Assembly (NCBI RefSeq): GCF_000739715.2
Contig: NZ_BBJC02000004.1
Location: 168,324-221,939, forward strand
DNA from: Falsirhodobacter sp. alg1
GTDB taxonomy: Bacteria; Pseudomonadota; Alphaproteobacteria; Rhodobacterales; Rhodobacteraceae
Length of the DNA: 53,616 nt
Direction: 5' to 3'
The position numbers and the translations under genes were made by a program. Below are positions 1,931-20,711 of the stretch, one piece after another. The notes below the pieces were generated by a model. That model was not told where the DNA came from, did not search any database, and was given only the letters and a program-made list of their open reading frames with translations. Position 1 is the first letter of the stretch. Each line of letters starts with the position of its first letter.

Positions 1931-2869
1931 ATGCCCCCGGTATCTGAACGTCCTTTGCGCGGTATCACGCTAAAAACGTGCTCGGTTCTTATATTCGTGG
2001 TTATGTCCTCGTTGATCAAGGTCACCTCCGATGTGGTGCCTGCGGGGGAGGCCGTGTTCTTCCGTTCCGCCTTTGCAATTCCGGTCATTCTGGTGTGGCT
2101 TGCCATGCGTCAGGAACTGCGGACAGGGTTGCGCGCCAATAACATCATGGGCCATGTCTGGCGCGGCGTGGTGGGGACGATGGCCATGGGGTGCGGGTTT
2201 TCGGCTCTTGGCTATCTGCCGCTTCCCGAAGTAACGGCCCTGGCCTATGCCACACCGTTGCTGACGGTCATCTTTGCCGCGATGTTTCTGGGAGAGGAGG
2301 TTCGCGCCTTCCGCCTGACAGCCGTCGGCCTGGGGTTGACCGGTGTCATGGTCATCCTGTGGCCGCGAATGACCATCGGCGCCGACGGAATCGGCAACGC
2401 CGCCACACTGGGGGCGATGCTGGCCCTGATCGGGGCAACATTCGCGGCAATGGCATCCGTGTTCATCCGCAAGATGGTCGCGATCGAGAGTACGGCCTCC
2501 ATCGTCTTTTATTTCTCGCTTACCTCTACCGTATTGTCGCTGGCCACCATTCCCTTCGGCTGGGTATGGCCCGGCTGGGAGTACGTGGGGCTGCTGATTA
2601 TCGCCGGTATTCTGGGGGGAATCGCACAGATATTTCTGACGCAGGCATTCCGGGAGGCGGATGCCTCCGTGATTGCGCCATTCGATTATGCATCCATGCT
2701 GTTCGCCCTGGGAATCGGCTATTTCATCTTTGATGAAACGCCGACGCATACGATGCTGCTGGGGGCGGCCATCGTGATCGGGTCCGGCTGCTTCATCATC
2801 TGGCGAGAGCAGCGGCTGGGGTTGGAGCGGACGCAGATGCGCAAGGCGCTTTCGCCCGGAATGCGTTAG
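1931..2869 (+). CDS. EamA/DMT-family transporter
   Basis: A 312-residue integral membrane protein with about ten hydrophobic segments in two similar halves, the layout of the drug/metabolite transporter (EamA, RhaT-like) superfamily. The second half carries the typical [20 protein letters not shown] stretch, and the chain ends in a short basic cytoplasmic tail. The start ATG at 1931 is chosen because AAGG lies just upstream and because it places the first membrane helix near the N terminus; an upstream in-frame ATG would add residues encoded in the divergent promoter region. Substrate cannot be told from sequence. Divergence from adenine deaminase hints at nucleobase or amino-acid related export, but that is only inference. 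Confidence 0.85.
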
Positions 2870-3243
2870 GGCGGCTGCGCCTCGGGATTCGTGGCGCATC
2901 CTTGTCAACGCATCGCTTGCCATACCGGAGCCAGTTGTCTTTTTCGGTCAGCTTTGCCGTATCTGCCGCCGCACCGCTTCGGCCCATGCGCCCGCCGACG
3001 CTGTGATCCTGAAAGACTGCACAAACGACCCGGCACAATCCGGTTTCTGAACATGGCCATATCGAAGGCCCGCAGGGCGGTGCGCGGCAGGCCGGGCATT
3101 CATCGCATTAGCCCGGGTGCTGGCAGGGAACGGTATTTGCCGTTTGAGGCTTTCCTCCAAGGCATCTTACACAAAGCCCGTTATGTGAATTGATATTGCC
3201 GATCCGGTGCCTCGGGCATCTTTCGTTACAAAAGGATGATCCT
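2870..3243. other. Intergenic stretch without a recognisable gene
   Basis: These 374 bases between the EamA-type transporter and the beta-lactamase hold only short open frames with no family resemblance. I see no convincing hairpin terminator and no repeat. The last bases carry the ribosome-binding site AAAGGA (about 3230-3236) of the beta-lactamase gene. Its promoter is presumably here but I could not pick out a clear -35/-10 pair. Confidence 0.5.
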
Positions 3244-4125
3244 GTGCGGTTTTACACCTCCATCCTGTCGCGCGTGGCGGCAGCTTTTGCTTTTGGTCTG
3301 TTATTAGCCCCGACATCATTCGCCCAGCCATCTGCCGATACGCTGTTGCCCACCGTGGCGCAGATCGAAGCGCGTCTTGACGGCCGTATCGGCCTGTCAC
3401 TCATCGAAACCGGTTCGGGGCGGTCGTGGACCTATCGCAAAGACGAACGATTTCCGATGAACAGCACGGTGAAAGTTCCGATCTGTGCCACTGTGCTTGC
3501 CCGTCGCGATGCGGGGAAGTTGTCGCTGTCGGATATTCTGCGCGTTAACCAAGAGGATATCCTGTCCTATGCACCCGTTACCGAAAAAACGGTCGGGGCA
3601 GGGATGAGCCTTGCAGACCTTTGCCTGGCCGCGATCGATATGAGCGATAATACGGCCGCGAACATGCTGGTCGATCATATTGGCGGGCCGCAGGCGGTGA
3701 CAGATTTTCTACGAGGCACGGGAGATGAACTAAGTCGGCTTGACCGGCGCGAGCCGGAGTTGAATAATTTTCTGTCCGGGGATCCGCGCGATACGACAAC
3801 TCCCGCTGCCATGACCGAAACACTGCGTCGGCTGCTGCTAGGGAACGCACTGTCATCGGAATCGGGTAAGCAACTTGCGGAATGGATGAGCATTGGCGGG
3901 GTGACAGGCAACCTGCTGCGCGCCGACGCGCCTGAAGGGTGGATTATTCTGGACAAGTCGGGTGGTGGAAGCCACACGCGCAACATCGTTGCGGTGGTCA
4001 TTCCCGAAGGCGGCTCTCCATGGATTGTTACGATCTTCATTTCGGACGTCGATGCGGATTCAAGCACACGCAACGCCGCCCTTCAGCAGATCGGCAGCGC
4101 CGTGATGTCGGTAATCCGGGAATGA
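3244..4125 (+). CDS. Class A (serine) beta-lactamase
   Basis: A 293-residue periplasmic beta-lactamase predicted to hydrolyse penicillin-type antibiotics through an acyl-serine intermediate. It starts with a signal peptide (about residues 1-27, cleavage after TSFA). All class A landmarks are present: STVK with catalytic Ser74 and Lys77, SDN at 134-136, Glu170 and Asn174 in the omega loop (EPELN), and a KSG triad at 238-240 in place of the more common KTG. Chromosomal class A enzymes are known in Rhodobacter relatives, some of the carbenicillinase group. The GTG start at 3244 is preferred over an upstream ATG because AAAGGA is correctly spaced and it starts directly at the signal peptide. No AmpR/BlaR-type regulator lies next to it. 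Confidence 0.93.
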   Translation: MRFYTSILSRVAAAFAFGLLLAPTSFAQPSADTLLPTVAQIEARLDGRIGLSLIETGSGRSWTYRKDERFPMNSTVKVPICATVLARRDAGKLSLSDILRVNQEDILSYAPVTEKTVGAGMSLADLCLAAIDMSDNTAANMLVDHIGGPQAVTDFLRGTGDELSRLDRREPELNNFLSGDPRDTTTPAAMTETLRRLLLGNALSSESGKQLAEWMSIGGVTGNLLRADAPEGWIILDKSGGGSHTRNIVAVVIPEGGSPWIVTIFISDVDADSSTRNAALQQIGSAVMSVIRE

Positions 4126-16457: not shown

Positions 16458-16629
16458 CCCCCATAACTGGACCAAAGCCCCGTGCAATCAATATGACCGC
16501 CGGGATTTGGACCCGAAGAACTATCAAAGCGAATTGCTTGGGGGCGTGAGTCATATTACAGCATGAACCATACAAGAACACCTGTCGCGTGCTGGATCGC
16601 GTTGGGTTGCTGCTCGGAGAAGTGACAAT

Positions 16630-18135
16630 ATGCACGGCACAACCGGGAGCGATCCCCAAACCAGAATTCTGACCGGTACACCTGGCCTTGATGATGTGTT
16701 GCGGGGTGGGCTGACGCCTTCGCGGCTGTATCTGGTAGAAGGAACGCCCGGATCGGGCAAGACGACGCTGGCGCTGCGCTTTTTGCTGGAGGGGCGTCAG
16801 GCGGGGGATCGGGCGCTGTATATCACCCTTTCCGAAACGGAAAACGAACTGCAGGCGGTGGCGCTTTCCCACGGGTGGTCGCTTGACGGGGTTACCCTGT
16901 TCGAGATGGTGGCCGAGGATGAATTCAGCGCGGCACATGAACAGACGCTGCTGCATCCCAGCGAGGTGGAGCTGGGCGAAACCGTGCGCGGCATCATTGA
17001 TCTGGTCGAACGGATCAATCCCCGGCGGGTTGTGCTGGACAGCCTTTCGGAGCTGCGGCTTCTGGCGCAGAATCCGCTGCGGTACCGCCGCCAGATACTG
17101 GCATTGAAGCATTTCTTCGCCCGCCGGAACTGTACCGTCTGGATGCTGGATGACCGGACCGCCGAGCCGGGCGATCTGCAGCTGCACTCCATTGCGCATG
17201 GCGTCATCTCTCTGGAGCATTCCGCAAGCGATTTCGGGGCCGAGCGTCGCCGCCTGCGGGTGATAAAGATGCGGGGGTTGCAGTATCATGGCGGGTTCCA
17301 CGATCTGACCATCGAGCGCGGCGGTATCCGTGTGTACCCGCGCCTGATAGCAGCCCATCACCATCGCACATTCTCCAGCCTGCCTGTCACAACGGGGCTT
17401 GAGGGACTGGATGCCCTGCTGGGAGAGGGACTGTTCCCCGGTACGAACACGCTGCTGGCCGGACCTGCGGGCGTGGGAAAAACCACCACGGCGGTGCGAT
17501 GCATGATTGCAGCGCTGCAACGCGGGCAGAAGGCGGCGTATTTCCTGTTCGACGAACGTCTGTCTACCCTACTGATCCGGTCTAGGGCCCTGAACATGGA
17601 TTTGCAGCCCTATCTGGATTCGGGCCTGCTGCAGATCCGCCAGATCGATCCGGCGGAACTGTCGCCGGGGCAGTTCGCCAGCGCGGTCCGGTCAGCGGTG
17701 GAAGAGGGGGATGTCGGGATTGTCGTGATCGACAGCCTGAATGCCTATCTGCACGCCATGCCAAGCGATAACTACCTTGTCCTGCAGATGCACGAATTGC
17801 TCAGCTATCTGGCGCAGCAGGGTGTCGTATCGATGATGATCCTTGGCCAGCATGGCGTGACAGGGGATCTGCGGTCCGACATCGACATCAGCTATCTTGC
17901 TGATACGGTCATGATGCTGCGCTTTTTCGAGGCGGAAGGGGAGGTTCGCAAATCCATCTCCGTCATCAAGACGCGGACCTCGGATCATGAACGCAGCATC
18001 CGCGAATTCCGCATCGACCAGGGCGGCCTTCTGGTGGGCCAGCCCCTGCGCAACTTCAGGGGCATCCTGTCCGGCGTGCCGATCTATCATCCAGAGCAGG
18101 GCGCGCTCCTGCCGCTGGAGGGTAATTCGCAATGA
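16630..18135 (+). CDS. KaiC-like double-domain RecA ATPase
   Basis: A 501-residue protein of two RecA-like KaiC domains. Domain 1 has Walker A GTPGSGKTT (38-46), domain 2 has GPAGVGKTT (278-286). In cyanobacterial KaiC two glutamates follow the first strand of each domain; here they read SE in domain 1 (about 69-70) and DE (FDER, 308-309) in domain 2. At the autophosphorylation site of domain 2 the usual Ser-Thr is Ser421-Tyr422 (DISYLADT). KaiC homologues outside cyanobacteria act with histidine kinases rather than a KaiABC oscillator. No kaiA or kaiB is nearby. The stop overlaps the start of the HWE kinase (ATGA), so the two proteins are made together. Confidence 0.93.
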   Translation: MHGTTGSDPQTRILTGTPGLDDVLRGGLTPSRLYLVEGTPGSGKTTLALRFLLEGRQAGDRALYITLSETENELQAVALSHGWSLDGVTLFEMVAEDEFSAAHEQTLLHPSEVELGETVRGIIDLVERINPRRVVLDSLSELRLLAQNPLRYRRQILALKHFFARRNCTVWMLDDRTAEPGDLQLHSIAHGVISLEHSASDFGAERRRLRVIKMRGLQYHGGFHDLTIERGGIRVYPRLIAAHHHRTFSSLPVTTGLEGLDALLGEGLFPGTNTLLAGPAGVGKTTTAVRCMIAALQRGQKAAYFLFDERLSTLLIRSRALNMDLQPYLDSGLLQIRQIDPAELSPGQFASAVRSAVEEGDVGIVVIDSLNAYLHAMPSDNYLVLQMHELLSYLAQQGVVSMMILGQHGVTGDLRSDIDISYLADTVMMLRFFEAEGEVRKSISVIKTRTSDHERSIREFRIDQGGLLVGQPLRNFRGILSGVPIYHPEQGALLPLEGNSQ

Positions 18136-19583
18136 CGCCGGAATGGCCCCCCGCTGCGGTGACGGGGGCAGGGTCCGATCCGACCGGCGCCGTCGCGATC
18201 CTGGCCCCCCGCGGGCGGGATGCGGTGGTGGCTGCGCAGCTTCTGCACAAGGAAGGTATCGGGACGATCATTGTTTCCGGATTGGACCGGCTGGCCGCGC
18301 TGATCGAGCAGCGTGTCGGCGCGGTTCTGATCACCGAAGAAGCATTGGCAGGCCCGGACGAAGAGCGCTTGCTGCGGGTTTTGCAGGATCAGCCTGCCTG
18401 GTCGGATGTGCCCTTTGTCGTGCTGGCGAACGGCACGGTCAGCAACCGGTCGGACAGGGCGATCCGCCGGATGGATTCCTTGCGAAATGCCGTTCTGCTG
18501 TCACGTCCGCTGCATGCAGAGGAACTGGTCCGCTCCGTCCGCTCTGCACTGACGGCCCGCGGCCGTCAGCACGATGCCCGCAAACGGATGGAAGAGCTGC
18601 GGCTTCGGGAAAAGCAGCTTTTCGAGAGCGAAGCGCAGTTTCACGCCATTGCGGATTCCGTGGACCAGATGATCTGGTCCACCACCCCAACAGGCTTTCA
18701 TGACTATTTCAACCGTCGCTGGTATGAATTTACCGGTGTTCCCTATGGCTCCACGGATGGGGAGGCATGGGCCGAACTGTTCCACCCTGACGATCAGGAT
18801 AACATTTGGCGGCGCTGGCGCCACAGCCTCGGCACCGGCGATCATTATGAGATTGAGTATCGGCTGAAGCACCGCAGCGGCGATTACCGATGGGTGCTGG
18901 GCCGCGCGCAGCCCGTGCGGAACGTGGATGGCAGGATCATCCGCTGGTATGGGAGCTGCACCGATATCCACCGCATGAAAACCGCCGAAGAGCAGCGGCA
19001 GCTGATGCTGGCCGAGATGAACCACCGGGTGAAGAACTCCTTGGCGATGGTGCATGCAATCGTCTCGCAGACCCTGCGTCAGGCCGAGAATCTGGAGGAT
19101 GCGCGGGCGGCAATCCAGTCGCGGATCGGAATGCTGTCGCAGGCACATGATCGGCTGGTGCAGTCCAGCTGGACCGAGGCGCATATTCTTGATGTCATCG
19201 ATGCAGCGCTGGCCCCCCATCGCAACGGCGAGGCGCGGTTCATCGTGAAAGGGCCGAACCTTCCTGTCGGGTCCAAGCAGGCACTGGCCCTGACGATGGC
19301 GCTTCACGAATTGGCAACCAATGCCGTCAAATATGGCGCATTATCGGTTGCAGGGGGGCATGTGCATCTGAAATGGGAAATGGCCGACGCACAATTCCAC
19401 CTTTCATGGATCGAAACGGGTGGCCCGCCGGTGGCCCCGCCCGCGCGCAAGGGGTTCGGCAGCCGCATGATCGAACAGGCACTGGCAGGATATTTCGATG
19501 GGTCGGCGGAACTCGACTACGATGTCGGGGGTTTGCGATTCAACCTGATAGCTCCGGTCACGGGCCTGACGACCGGCGAATAG
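18132..19583 (+). CDS. Sensor kinase: pseudo-receiver, PAS, HWE histidine kinase
   Basis: A 483-residue soluble kinase. Residues about 21-140 have the spacing of a receiver domain but lack the acidic pair and the phosphoacceptor Asp (ITEEA at that place), and the usual Lys is Arg (LSRP): a pseudo-receiver. A PAS domain follows (about 165-282) with the RRWYEFTGV and HPDD motifs and a PAC end. The HWE kinase region has the phosphorylated His298 in EMNHRVKNSLAM, the N-box HELATNAVKYGALS and the defining WxE (Trp426-Glu428). HWE kinases commonly feed general stress or light/oxygen responses in alphaproteobacteria. It is coupled to the KaiC-like gene upstream and followed 32 bp later by a receiver gene. 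Confidence 0.92.
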   Translation: MTPEWPPAAVTGAGSDPTGAVAILAPRGRDAVVAAQLLHKEGIGTIIVSGLDRLAALIEQRVGAVLITEEALAGPDEERLLRVLQDQPAWSDVPFVVLANGTVSNRSDRAIRRMDSLRNAVLLSRPLHAEELVRSVRSALTARGRQHDARKRMEELRLREKQLFESEAQFHAIADSVDQMIWSTTPTGFHDYFNRRWYEFTGVPYGSTDGEAWAELFHPDDQDNIWRRWRHSLGTGDHYEIEYRLKHRSGDYRWVLGRAQPVRNVDGRIIRWYGSCTDIHRMKTAEEQRQLMLAEMNHRVKNSLAMVHAIVSQTLRQAENLEDARAAIQSRIGMLSQAHDRLVQSSWTEAHILDVIDAALAPHRNGEARFIVKGPNLPVGSKQALALTMALHELATNAVKYGALSVAGGHVHLKWEMADAQFHLSWIETGGPPVAPPARKGFGSRMIEQALAGYFDGSAELDYDVGGLRFNLIAPVTGLTTGE

Positions 19584-19615
19584 GCTATCAACCCTATGTG
19601 TGAATAGAAGCAAGA

Positions 19616-20002
19616 ATGACCAGTATTCCCAAATCTCCTCCCGCAGTTCTTGTGGTCGAGGACGAACCCCTGATCCGTATGGAAGCGGTGGACATGATCG
19701 AGGACGCCGGATTCAGCACCTATAGTGCCAAATCCGCCGATGCGGCGATCACCATTCTGGAAAGCCATGACGATATCGGCATCCTGTTTACGGATGTGGA
19801 TATGCCCGGATCGATGGATGGGTTGAAACTGGCGGCCTATGTGCAGGGGCGTTGGCCTGCGGTCGGGATCATCGTGGCATCGGGTATCGTGAACGCGAAT
19901 GACCGCAACCTGCCGGAAGGGGTGGCATTCTTTCCCAAGCCCTATCCGACAAGCCGTATCATCGAGGCATTGGGCGATATCGCGGCGCGCCAGCCGGAAT
20001 GA
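19616..20002 (+). CDS. Single-domain response regulator
   Basis: A 128-residue CheY-like receiver with no output domain. The acidic pair is in VVEDEP (Glu15-Asp16), the phosphoacceptor is Asp60 in LFTDVDMPGSMDG, the conserved Thr/Ser position reads ASG, and Lys108 is in FPKPY. All phosphorylation residues are intact. It most likely takes phosphate from the adjacent HWE kinase and acts through protein contacts, possibly on the KaiC-like ATPase or as a phosphate sink; this is inferred from gene order. It ends the module and is followed by a hairpin. Confidence 0.93.
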   Translation: MTSIPKSPPAVLVVEDEPLIRMEAVDMIEDAGFSTYSAKSADAAITILESHDDIGILFTDVDMPGSMDGLKLAAYVQGRWPAVGIIVASGIVNANDRNLPEGVAFFPKPYPTSRIIEALGDIAARQPE

Positions 20003-20007
20003 CCAAA

Positions 20008-20027
20008 GGGTGCCCGCAGGGGCACCC
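20008..20027 (+). terminator. Hairpin ending the kaiC-kinase-receiver module
   Basis: A perfect 8-bp stem, GGGTGCCC (20008-20015) with GGGCACCC (20020-20027), closes a four-base loop six bases after the receiver stop codon. The tract after it is mixed (GGGTATTGTTT), so termination may be incomplete, but the position just behind the last gene and before a convergent gene fits a terminator. Confidence 0.65.
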
Positions 20028-20045
20028 GGGTATTGTTTGAATCTC

Positions 20046-20711
20046 TTATTCGGCTGGTACGTGATCCATGACTACATTGCGCCGGAACTCCGGCGTGGCC
20101 AGGCGGGCAATGGCCACGGCGATCAGCCAGTAGCAGGCCAGCTCCAGCACTTCTTCGCCTTGCCCCGCCAGATCGTTCAGTTGCACGGATATGTCGATGC
20201 CCATGGGGGCCAGCTTGCGGCCAAGGCCATCGAATGTCTTAGCAAATACGCCGCAGATGAAGGCGATCGTGATCAGCACAGCATCCAGCCGCATCATCCG
20301 CAGGCGCGCCCACCACAAGGGGCCATTGCGGCGGATCAGGCGATAGGAAACATACAGCACGAACAGGATGGCTGCGCCGCCAATCAGCTTATCCGCAAGG
20401 GGGGCCGGATGTGTGTAGGTTGTCAGCTTCAGCAGCCCGTGTTCGGTGAACCGCTTGTCGGCATCCATTTCGCGTGCCAGCATCAGCAGCATCACTGCGG
20501 GGATCTGCCATTCCGACCAGCGATAGGGACCTGCCAGCCAGAACCACAGGCAGATCGAGCCTACCAGCATGCCCAGCGATGCCTCTTCCACGCCGTGCCC
20601 CTCTTTGAAGAACAGGTGGAGATCCGAGACCTCAGCCGCCGAGATCACCAGATACCCAAGCGTCAGAATGGCGATGGTTCGGGCGATAACGCTGAAATTG
20701 GGGGTGGGCAT
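20046..20711 (-). CDS. Multi-span membrane protein of unknown function
   Basis: A 221-residue inner-membrane protein with about six hydrophobic segments (roughly residues 8-28, 45-63, 67-79, 105-125, 139-159, 185-205). A loop between helices three and four contains KRFTEHGLLKLTTYTHPAPLADK, and a short amphipathic loop near 165-185 holds DISVQLNDLAGQGEEV. I do not recognise the family. AAAGGA stands seven bases upstream of the start at 20711. It converges on the receiver gene and diverges from the CbiX-like gene, so it seems to be transcribed alone. Confidence 0.75.
   Translation of the reverse strand: MPTPNFSVIARTIAILTLGYLVISAAEVSDLHLFFKEGHGVEEASLGMLVGSICLWFWLAGPYRWSEWQIPAVMLLMLAREMDADKRFTEHGLLKLTTYTHPAPLADKLIGGAAILFVLYVSYRLIRRNGPLWWARLRMMRLDAVLITIAFICGVFAKTFDGLGRKLAPMGIDISVQLNDLAGQGEEVLELACYWLIAVAIARLATPEFRRNVVMDHVPAE

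Follow-up and report, generated by a model that had tools for sequence, protein, structure and literature searches.

KaiC proteins encoded without an adjacent KaiB are widespread in Proteobacteria, and the question at stake is how such proteins hand on their signal. Among the closest described systems is the "second kaiC-context" (PMC3164672, 2011), in which kaiC is accompanied by a specific kinase gene and kaiB is missing; it was reported for Ramlibacter tataouinensis and other Proteobacteria. According to the same report, kaiC and the kinase gene of Ramlibacter are cotranscribed, as judged by reverse transcription PCR, and its authors proposed that the N-terminal module of the kinase binds KaiC. 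This module was found to share 19% identity with a receiver domain from a response regulator of Thermosynechococcus, and it was also likened to SasA (16% identity) and KaiB (10%). A second system is the kaiC2-kaiR2 cluster of M. extorquens AM1, summarized in a review of 2021 from an original study of 2018 (PMC8069551): the S426A variant of KaiC2 loses the phosphorylated protein band and fails to restore plant colonisation, and KaiC2 is described as regulating temperature-dependent UV resistance negatively, with a phosphorylation that falls with temperature. Here, we analyze a kaiC locus of Falsirhodobacter sp. alg1 that is contained in a stretch of 53,616 nucleotides (contig NZ_BBJC02000004.1, positions 168,324 to 221,939), to which we refer as the window. 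It encodes a KaiC-like ATPase (P0001), an HWE histidine kinase (P0002) whose N-terminal module we call the pseudo-receiver, and a lone receiver (P0003).

Like the second kaiC-context, the window places kaiC directly in front of a kinase gene with a conserved N-terminal module, in a genome without kaiB, and the phosphorylation-site position of its KaiC is Ser421-Tyr422, one of the three combinations (SY, TY or SF) given for that context (PMC3164672). The kinase described there consists of HisKA plus HATPase_c, whereas that of the window has an HWE core and is accompanied by a separate receiver. Because the core is of the HWE and not of the HisKA type, we regard the locus as a variant of the second kaiC-context: the general kaiC-kinase arrangement is already known, and the exchanged HWE back end is what varies. 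In those parts of the open-access literature that our searches covered, we found no description of an HWE variant of a kaiB-less KaiC module. The original prediction had held that KaiC homologs beside such kinases are seen in other Proteobacteria with largely unsettled functions; the arrangement is indeed known, but the context was already defined in 2011 (PMC3164672) and phenotypes of KaiC2 have been published (PMC8069551). The kaiC2-kaiR2 cluster resembles the window in lacking kaiB and in having one phosphorylated serine (Ser426), and a relative from Methylorubrum podarium (L102) carries a pseudo-receiver gene. The KaiC of L102 is likely the counterpart of M. extorquens KaiC2, since the serine of its SY site is residue 426, counted from one of three ATG starts, which is the number of the phosphorylated serine in KaiC2. 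The kinase gene of L102 shows the start of a HisKA core before the contig ends, as opposed to the HWE core of the window, and M. extorquens possesses in addition a kaiC1-kaiB2-kaiB1-kaiR1 cluster (PMC8069551), while the window genome has no KaiB.

We read the locus as a self-contained, probably laterally acquired cassette built around a kaiB-less KaiC whose state would be read by the pseudo-receiver, gating the kinase and, through it, the receiver; we assign this reading a probability of roughly 60%. P0001 would form a two-tier ATPase ring, and its CII domain would autophosphorylate on Ser421 to an extent that follows the ATP supply or the temperature. The pseudo-receiver would serve as the dedicated reader of Ser421-phosphorylated KaiC, a role similar to that of the KaiB-like domain of cyanobacterial SasA, and binding would be communicated to the HWE core along a long helix and via the PAS domain. 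Control would run from KaiC to the kinase, in that KaiC would set the autophosphorylation of the HWE core on His298 and, with it, the degree to which the free receiver is phosphorylated on Asp60. Since P0003 possesses no output domain, it would presumably act by protein contact. Overall, the module at this locus is real and well conserved; it belongs to a known kind, of which it is a variant with an exchanged kinase half, and the mechanism outlined here is the most likely one, with the binding of KaiC by the pseudo-receiver as the central step that we infer.

Table 1. Features of the kaiC locus (positions are those of the window)
Feature	Position	Strand	Basis
KaiC-family double-domain ATPase P0001, 501 aa	16630..18135	+	Pfam and alignment to solved KaiC
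HWE histidine kinase P0002, 483 aa	18132..19583	+	Start overlaps kaiC stop; Pfam
Pseudo-receiver domain, P0002 residues 16-145	18177..18566	+	AlphaFold, Foldseek, alignment A2 of 79 rows
PAS domain, P0002 residues 165-288	18624..18995	+	Pfam
HWE dimerisation and catalytic domains of P0002	18999..19565	+	Pfam, motif conservation
Single-domain receiver P0003, 128 aa	19616..20002	+	Pfam, pocket residues
GC-rich hairpin 3' of the receiver gene, terminator-like, T run weak	20008..20027	+	Folding

The pseudo-receiver and P0001-type kaiC are linked near-exclusively within the class. We searched a sample of 385 genomes of the class (Alphaproteobacteria, judging by the named relatives) for KaiC (match threshold E 1e-40) and obtained matches in 28 of them. 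Identity is at least 48% in 21, among them the window genome, and 27-37% in seven; all 21 carry the pseudo-receiver. With the pseudo-receiver alone as the query, 24 of the 385 genomes matched at E 0.001. Strong matches (E 8e-12 or better) were found at 24 places in 22 genomes, and at 23 of these places a P0001-type kaiC precedes the match on the same strand, with the edges of the two matches 23-75 nucleotides apart; three further places were weak (E 2e-4 to 3e-4) and were covered by a domain scan. For a wider comparison, three aligned KaiC proteins served as the query for a scan of genome contigs, which yielded 545 candidate stretches, and the best 80 of 272 relatives were studied. In 79 of the 80, the gene next to kaiC opens with the same pseudo-receiver, the domain starting no more than 89 nucleotides from the kaiC stop codon, and in the remaining one (L026) the contig stops 79 nucleotides past kaiC. 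The pseudo-receiver is also present in a betaproteobacterial relative, on a plasmid of Paraburkholderia phymatum (L180; 64 bits).

What follows the pseudo-receiver varies. The kinase core is of the HisKA type in 64 of the 80 relatives, with a fused receiver seen in 61 and contig ends in the other three, while an HWE core with a separate receiver gene is present in 11. Four relatives received no assignment, owing to broken frames (L046), a contig end (L096 and L102) or a split frame (L100). The PAS domain adjoining the pseudo-receiver, queried with that of P0002, is matched in near relatives and not in many of the Sphingomonas-type hybrid kinases. A conserved three-gene set as such, whose occurrence in other genomes the original prediction wanted checked, was rejected, as a separate receiver directly behind the kinase gene accompanies only the HWE form; it is the pairing of kaiC with the pseudo-receiver that is conserved. 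Among the individual relatives, Paracoccus acridae carries the HWE-type triad twice, on separate contigs (L027 and L032). Cultivated strains in which the triad of the window also occurs include Loktanella salsilacus and Sulfitobacter litoralis. The pseudo-receiver kinase gene of Sulfitobacter maritimus (L046, 7420-8250) is in short broken frames with no kinase core detected. In L013 and L014 (from the family genomes G088 and G170), the gene behind a kaiC of 37-40% identity encodes a short kinase that matches the pseudo-receiver weakly (25 and 18 bits) and has an HWE core and no PAS match; in L014, a receiver is encoded upstream of kaiC.

The front end has been kept while the kinase core was exchanged. 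The two family genomes with the most similar KaiC, a plasmid of Pacificitalea manganoxidans (G149) and Pseudooceanicola onchidii (G192), encode kinases of the order pseudo-receiver-PAS-PAS-HisKA-HATPase-receiver. When identity to P0002 is counted in steps of 20 residues, these kinases score 60-90% over residues 121-280 and 5-35% over residues 281-480; at residue 281, identity drops from 75% to 15%. A shared front end joined to a different catalytic half from residue 281 onward is what one would expect of a front end that is specific to the partner. In a tree of KaiC proteins with 86 rows, the HWE/HisKA label requires four changes, at least three of which are forced by starred branches, and none of 500 shuffles was as low. 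This number of exchanges is approximate because the tree is a quick one with long branches; it omits L057 and 24 similar rows of the Sphingomonas type, and the labels of G547, G320 and G289 are based on weak or partial HisKA scores (33, 23 and 72 bits). The HWE rows to which the window belongs fall inside starred sets (96, 99) that also include HisKA rows, and from this nesting we infer that the exchange probably ran from HisKA to HWE.

That the kinase half was exchanged while the pseudo-receiver in front of it stayed constant suggests that one small domain is what reads KaiC, a proposition that can be tested with short constructs. We tentatively extend this to a broader view, for which the odds appear somewhat less than even: besides the KaiB/SasA fold and KaiA, the pseudo-receiver might be another kind of module that docks on KaiC, and KaiC with this front end might be a portable head reading ATP or temperature. 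Unrelated kinase back ends (a HisKA hybrid, or HWE plus a free receiver) would have been attached to this head, on the quick tree at least three times, and KaiC would thereby have an output without KaiB. If the pseudo-receiver does bind KaiC, the KaiC family gains a KaiB-free output route that is also plasmid-borne. The constancy of the front end, whichever kinase core comes after it, would also suit a reversed direction of control, in which the PAS-HWE kinase is the sensor and the pseudo-receiver docks on KaiC to alter its ATPase, autokinase or assembly in the manner of a KaiA-like input, with KaiC as the effector; pseudo-receivers are indeed described in both KaiA and CikA (PMC12632262). We consider this unlikely, because most relatives retain a catalytic half and a receiver (HisKA core in 64 of 80, HWE plus a free receiver in 11 of 80), which points to a phosphoryl output downstream of the kinase.

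The kinase P0002 has the architecture that had been called from the sequence alone, a pseudo-receiver followed by PAS and an HWE core. Pfam assigns PAS (PF08447, 1.7e-19) and HWE_HK (PF07536, 1.7e-24, 86.8 bits) domains; the same scan gave no HisKA match (PF00512) in P0002 and, at E 0.001, no match for its N-terminal part. HWE kinases are characterized by a phosphoacceptor histidine, an N box, a W-x-E motif and a G box. The corresponding residues of P0002 (H298, N397, W426-x-E428, G441 and G443) are invariant in 12 of 12 rows. The N-terminal module is predicted to adopt a receiver fold with the strand-helix order of receivers (AlphaFold model from 79 rows, mean pLDDT 92.2). When its columns were matched to active-site residues via the predicted strands, strand 1 was found to be followed by APxGRD instead of the acidic pair and strand 3 by Glu-Glu (the E69 column is Glu in 70 and Asp in five of 79 rows), with R125 at the position of the receiver lysine in all 79 rows. 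Residues D30, W90, R125, P126, R143, R145 and Q146 (P0002 numbering) are invariant in this alignment (A2), which comprises the window and 78 of 103 available pseudo-receiver stretches (87 after thinning, nine of them dropped by hand). The module is accordingly a predicted phosphorylation-dead receiver, and since the altered pocket is conserved rather than decaying, it suggests a use in binding.

A Foldseek search with the pseudo-receiver model returned 145 matches at E 0.001 or better, with moderate TM-scores of 0.55-0.73 by query length. The 50 of these that were listed are, by title or name, mostly receivers or response regulators; they include one B12-binding protein (2yxb) and an entry in which a yeast coiled coil is fused to another protein (6oec), and none of the 50 is KaiB, SasA, KaiA or CikA. 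A KaiB-like or SasA-like fold for the N-terminal module, along the lines of the likeness noted in 2011, is not supported by the model. In the pseudo-receivers of cyanobacterial CikA and KaiA, too, receiver domains without active-site residues are attached to a KaiC system, but that of CikA binds KaiB (PMC12632262), which is absent here, and the pseudo-receiver of the window forms the N-terminus of an HWE kinase. KaiA is stated to be exclusive to cyanobacteria (PMC5520375). The full-length model of P0002 has low confidence (mean pLDDT 76.2, pTM 0.40) and was for this reason used for secondary structure only; it predicts a continuous helix (residues 129-176) leading from the pseudo-receiver into the PAS domain.

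The absence of kaiB, which had been noted for the locus, extends to the entire window genome (2.92 Mb in 154 contigs, rated 100% complete), in which a search for KaiB gave 0 matches. This genome has a single double-domain KaiC. Two further frames, of 472 and 362 codons and presumably RadA- and RecA-like, are matched in part by PF06745. Of the other 197 genomes of the family, four encode a KaiC at E 1e-60, namely G149 (77% identity), G192 (72%), G170 (40%) and G088 (37%), and KaiB is absent from all four. With one KaiB query, no match was obtained in the 80 relative loci; KaiB was also sought in the genomes of 43 of these loci (42 genomes). Six of the seven class genomes with a KaiC of 27-37% identity have KaiB near kaiC on the same contig, and G259 has none.

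Systems in which KaiB and KaiC occur together with a PAS kinase are described for Rhodobacter sphaeroides (PMC5520375, PMC6627678) and Bradyrhizobium ORS278 (PMC3899966), the latter also with a CheY-like receiver, and occur in three (G198, G200 and G201) of the six other genomes compared from the genus of the window genome. These KaiBC systems share with the window a double-domain KaiC and a PAS kinase, which in the congeners (L018-L020) even has an HWE core. They differ in the presence of kaiB beside kaiC, the window genome having no KaiB, and the congener KaiC is just 29-30% identical to that of the window. In L018 (from G198), kaiC and kaiB are accompanied by a PAS-HWE kinase without a pseudo-receiver, and the KaiC carries, unlike that of the window, an SS site (judged by eye) and a long C-terminal tail. 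Alignments of P0002 with the kinases of L018-L020 begin at residue 259 at the earliest and do not cover the pseudo-receiver. An origin of the triad from a KaiBC operon that lost kaiB was rejected on account of this low KaiC identity, of the congener kinases, whose alignments leave the pseudo-receiver uncovered (in L018 its domains show the same), and of the KaiC tree, which places KaiBC-type rows far from the window KaiC.

P0001 comprises two KaiC domains (PF06745, 1e-69, in two stretches), and solved KaiC structures align to its residues 12-485 (best 8zn5, 1.5e-53). It has Walker A motifs at 38-46 and 278-286, Walker B aspartates D137 and D368, and the acidic pair D308-E309 in CII. The motifs were compared across 80 rows, the window and 79 of the 80 loci (L057 was left out because its frame is split): the SY site and the CII D-E pair are kept in all 80, as is the Walker A lysine of CII, and that of CI is kept in 79, with one row gapped. 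The tail after G482 measures 19 residues in P0001 and 14-34 residues across the rows, so that the C-terminal extension of about 50 residues (a coiled coil) described for R. sphaeroides KaiC (PMC10076222) is missing. The original prediction had suggested that the unit could be a timer sensing ATP/energy or light/redox; with its single conserved serine (SY, and not ST or SS), the protein would suit a phospho-switch no less than a timer. A rudimentary hourglass timer, with KaiC charging by day at high ATP and discharging by night so that the kinase reports the time of day, was proposed in 2011 for the kaiB-less context (PMC3164672); an hourglass that the ATP-to-ADP ratio drives has been described for the KaiBC system of R. 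sphaeroides (PMC10076222), and a single site, Ser431, is reported to suffice for a circadian period (PMC11832031, 2024). We nonetheless regard such a timer as quite improbable here, given that KaiB is missing from the window genome and from 41 of 42 genomes of relatives, that just one of the two phosphorylation-site positions is Ser or Thr, that the C-terminal extension is lacking, and that KaiC2 of M. extorquens is tied to temperature-dependent UV resistance (PMC8069551).

P0003 is a lone receiver (PF00072, 4.4e-15) with an intact pocket: D16, D60 and S89 (numbered by hand, as is K108) are present in 12 of 12 rows and K108 in all 11 rows that reach that far. At E 1e-18, receivers of this kind occur in the window genome and two others among the 198 family genomes. 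The donor of the HWE-receiver back end was not found in these comparisons, which did bring up a receiver of 49% identity in G135, with no HWE match within 10.5 kb around it, and one of 51% identity beside the KaiC1 of Methylorubrum. The latter is encoded in M. podarium (L164, 6162-6515, plus strand), adjoining and divergent to a KaiC-KaiB-KaiB cluster. PhyR is a usual target of HWE kinases, and the window genome encodes it (357 bits), the gene lying near a weak HWE match of 33 bits (L178, G000:C1:396500-401500). That the three genes are neighbors by operon convenience, with KaiC working alone and the kinase and P0003 either making up a two-component pair of the ordinary sort or belonging to the general stress response under PhyR as one of its branches, would accord with the presence of PhyR and with the Methylorubrum receiver beside a KaiBC cluster, but it is very unlikely in view of the near-exclusive pseudo-receiver/kaiC linkage that persists through exchange of the kinase core, and of the rarity of P0003-like receivers in the family.

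Several points weigh against a KaiC-gated cassette as proposed above. The HWE core may phosphorylate receivers other than P0003, PhyR included, and the free-receiver form is confined to 11 of the 80 relatives. One of the 24 strong pseudo-receiver places, the sole exception to the linkage, is a hybrid kinase in G597 (L162, G597:C1:455000-463000, 1974-3935, minus strand) that has no KaiC match within 8 kb. The no-kaiB rule is not strict for the family of modules either: three of the 21 class genomes with this KaiC (G289, G315 and G489) also have KaiB on other contigs, and of the 42 genomes of relatives, that of M. podarium has KaiB, with a second KaiC of 28% identity on the same contig. The module of Ramlibacter is likened to the pseudo-receiver of the window by description only, and the GC content of the cassette resembles that of its flanks, with no clear difference.

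The open reading frame coordinates confirmed the predicted layout, with three genes on the plus strand in the order KaiC-like ATPase, kinase and receiver, the kaiC stop and kinase start overlapping in ATGA, and a hairpin behind them. The hairpin has eight pairs, seven of them G-C; the 48-nucleotide stretch containing it folds at -21.5 kcal/mol (z -2.67), and six of 200 shuffles folded equally well.

The triad is probably a laterally acquired unit, since none of the other six genomes of the genus has it at the corresponding site, where 16 kb gave no match to kaiC, kinase or receiver; with a GC content resembling that of the flanks, the argument rests on these sites without the triad. All six congeners carry the methylpurine glycosylase gene and the 221-aa gene in the same order and neighborhood, flanked by ThiF and topoisomerase IB on one side and by CbiX and cation efflux on the opposite one. 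The two flanking genes come so close in L191 that their matches share 13 nucleotides. The flanks are not identical: L189 and L191 lack a match to the GlnA-like gene, and L193 and L194 match the dUTPase at just 38%; other open reading frames occupy the spot in L189, L190, L193 and L194. The content of this site (window 16487-20046; L189-L194) varies within the genus between the triad, nothing, an open reading frame of 199-219 aa, and two open reading frames resembling, on inspection by eye, a Rieske oxygenase with its reductase. On plasmids, 241 of 72,556 records carry a relative of this KaiC at E 1e-60, and a Loktanella salsilacus plasmid (NZ_CP072993.1) bears the same triad, annotated as ATPase, HWE kinase and response regulator.

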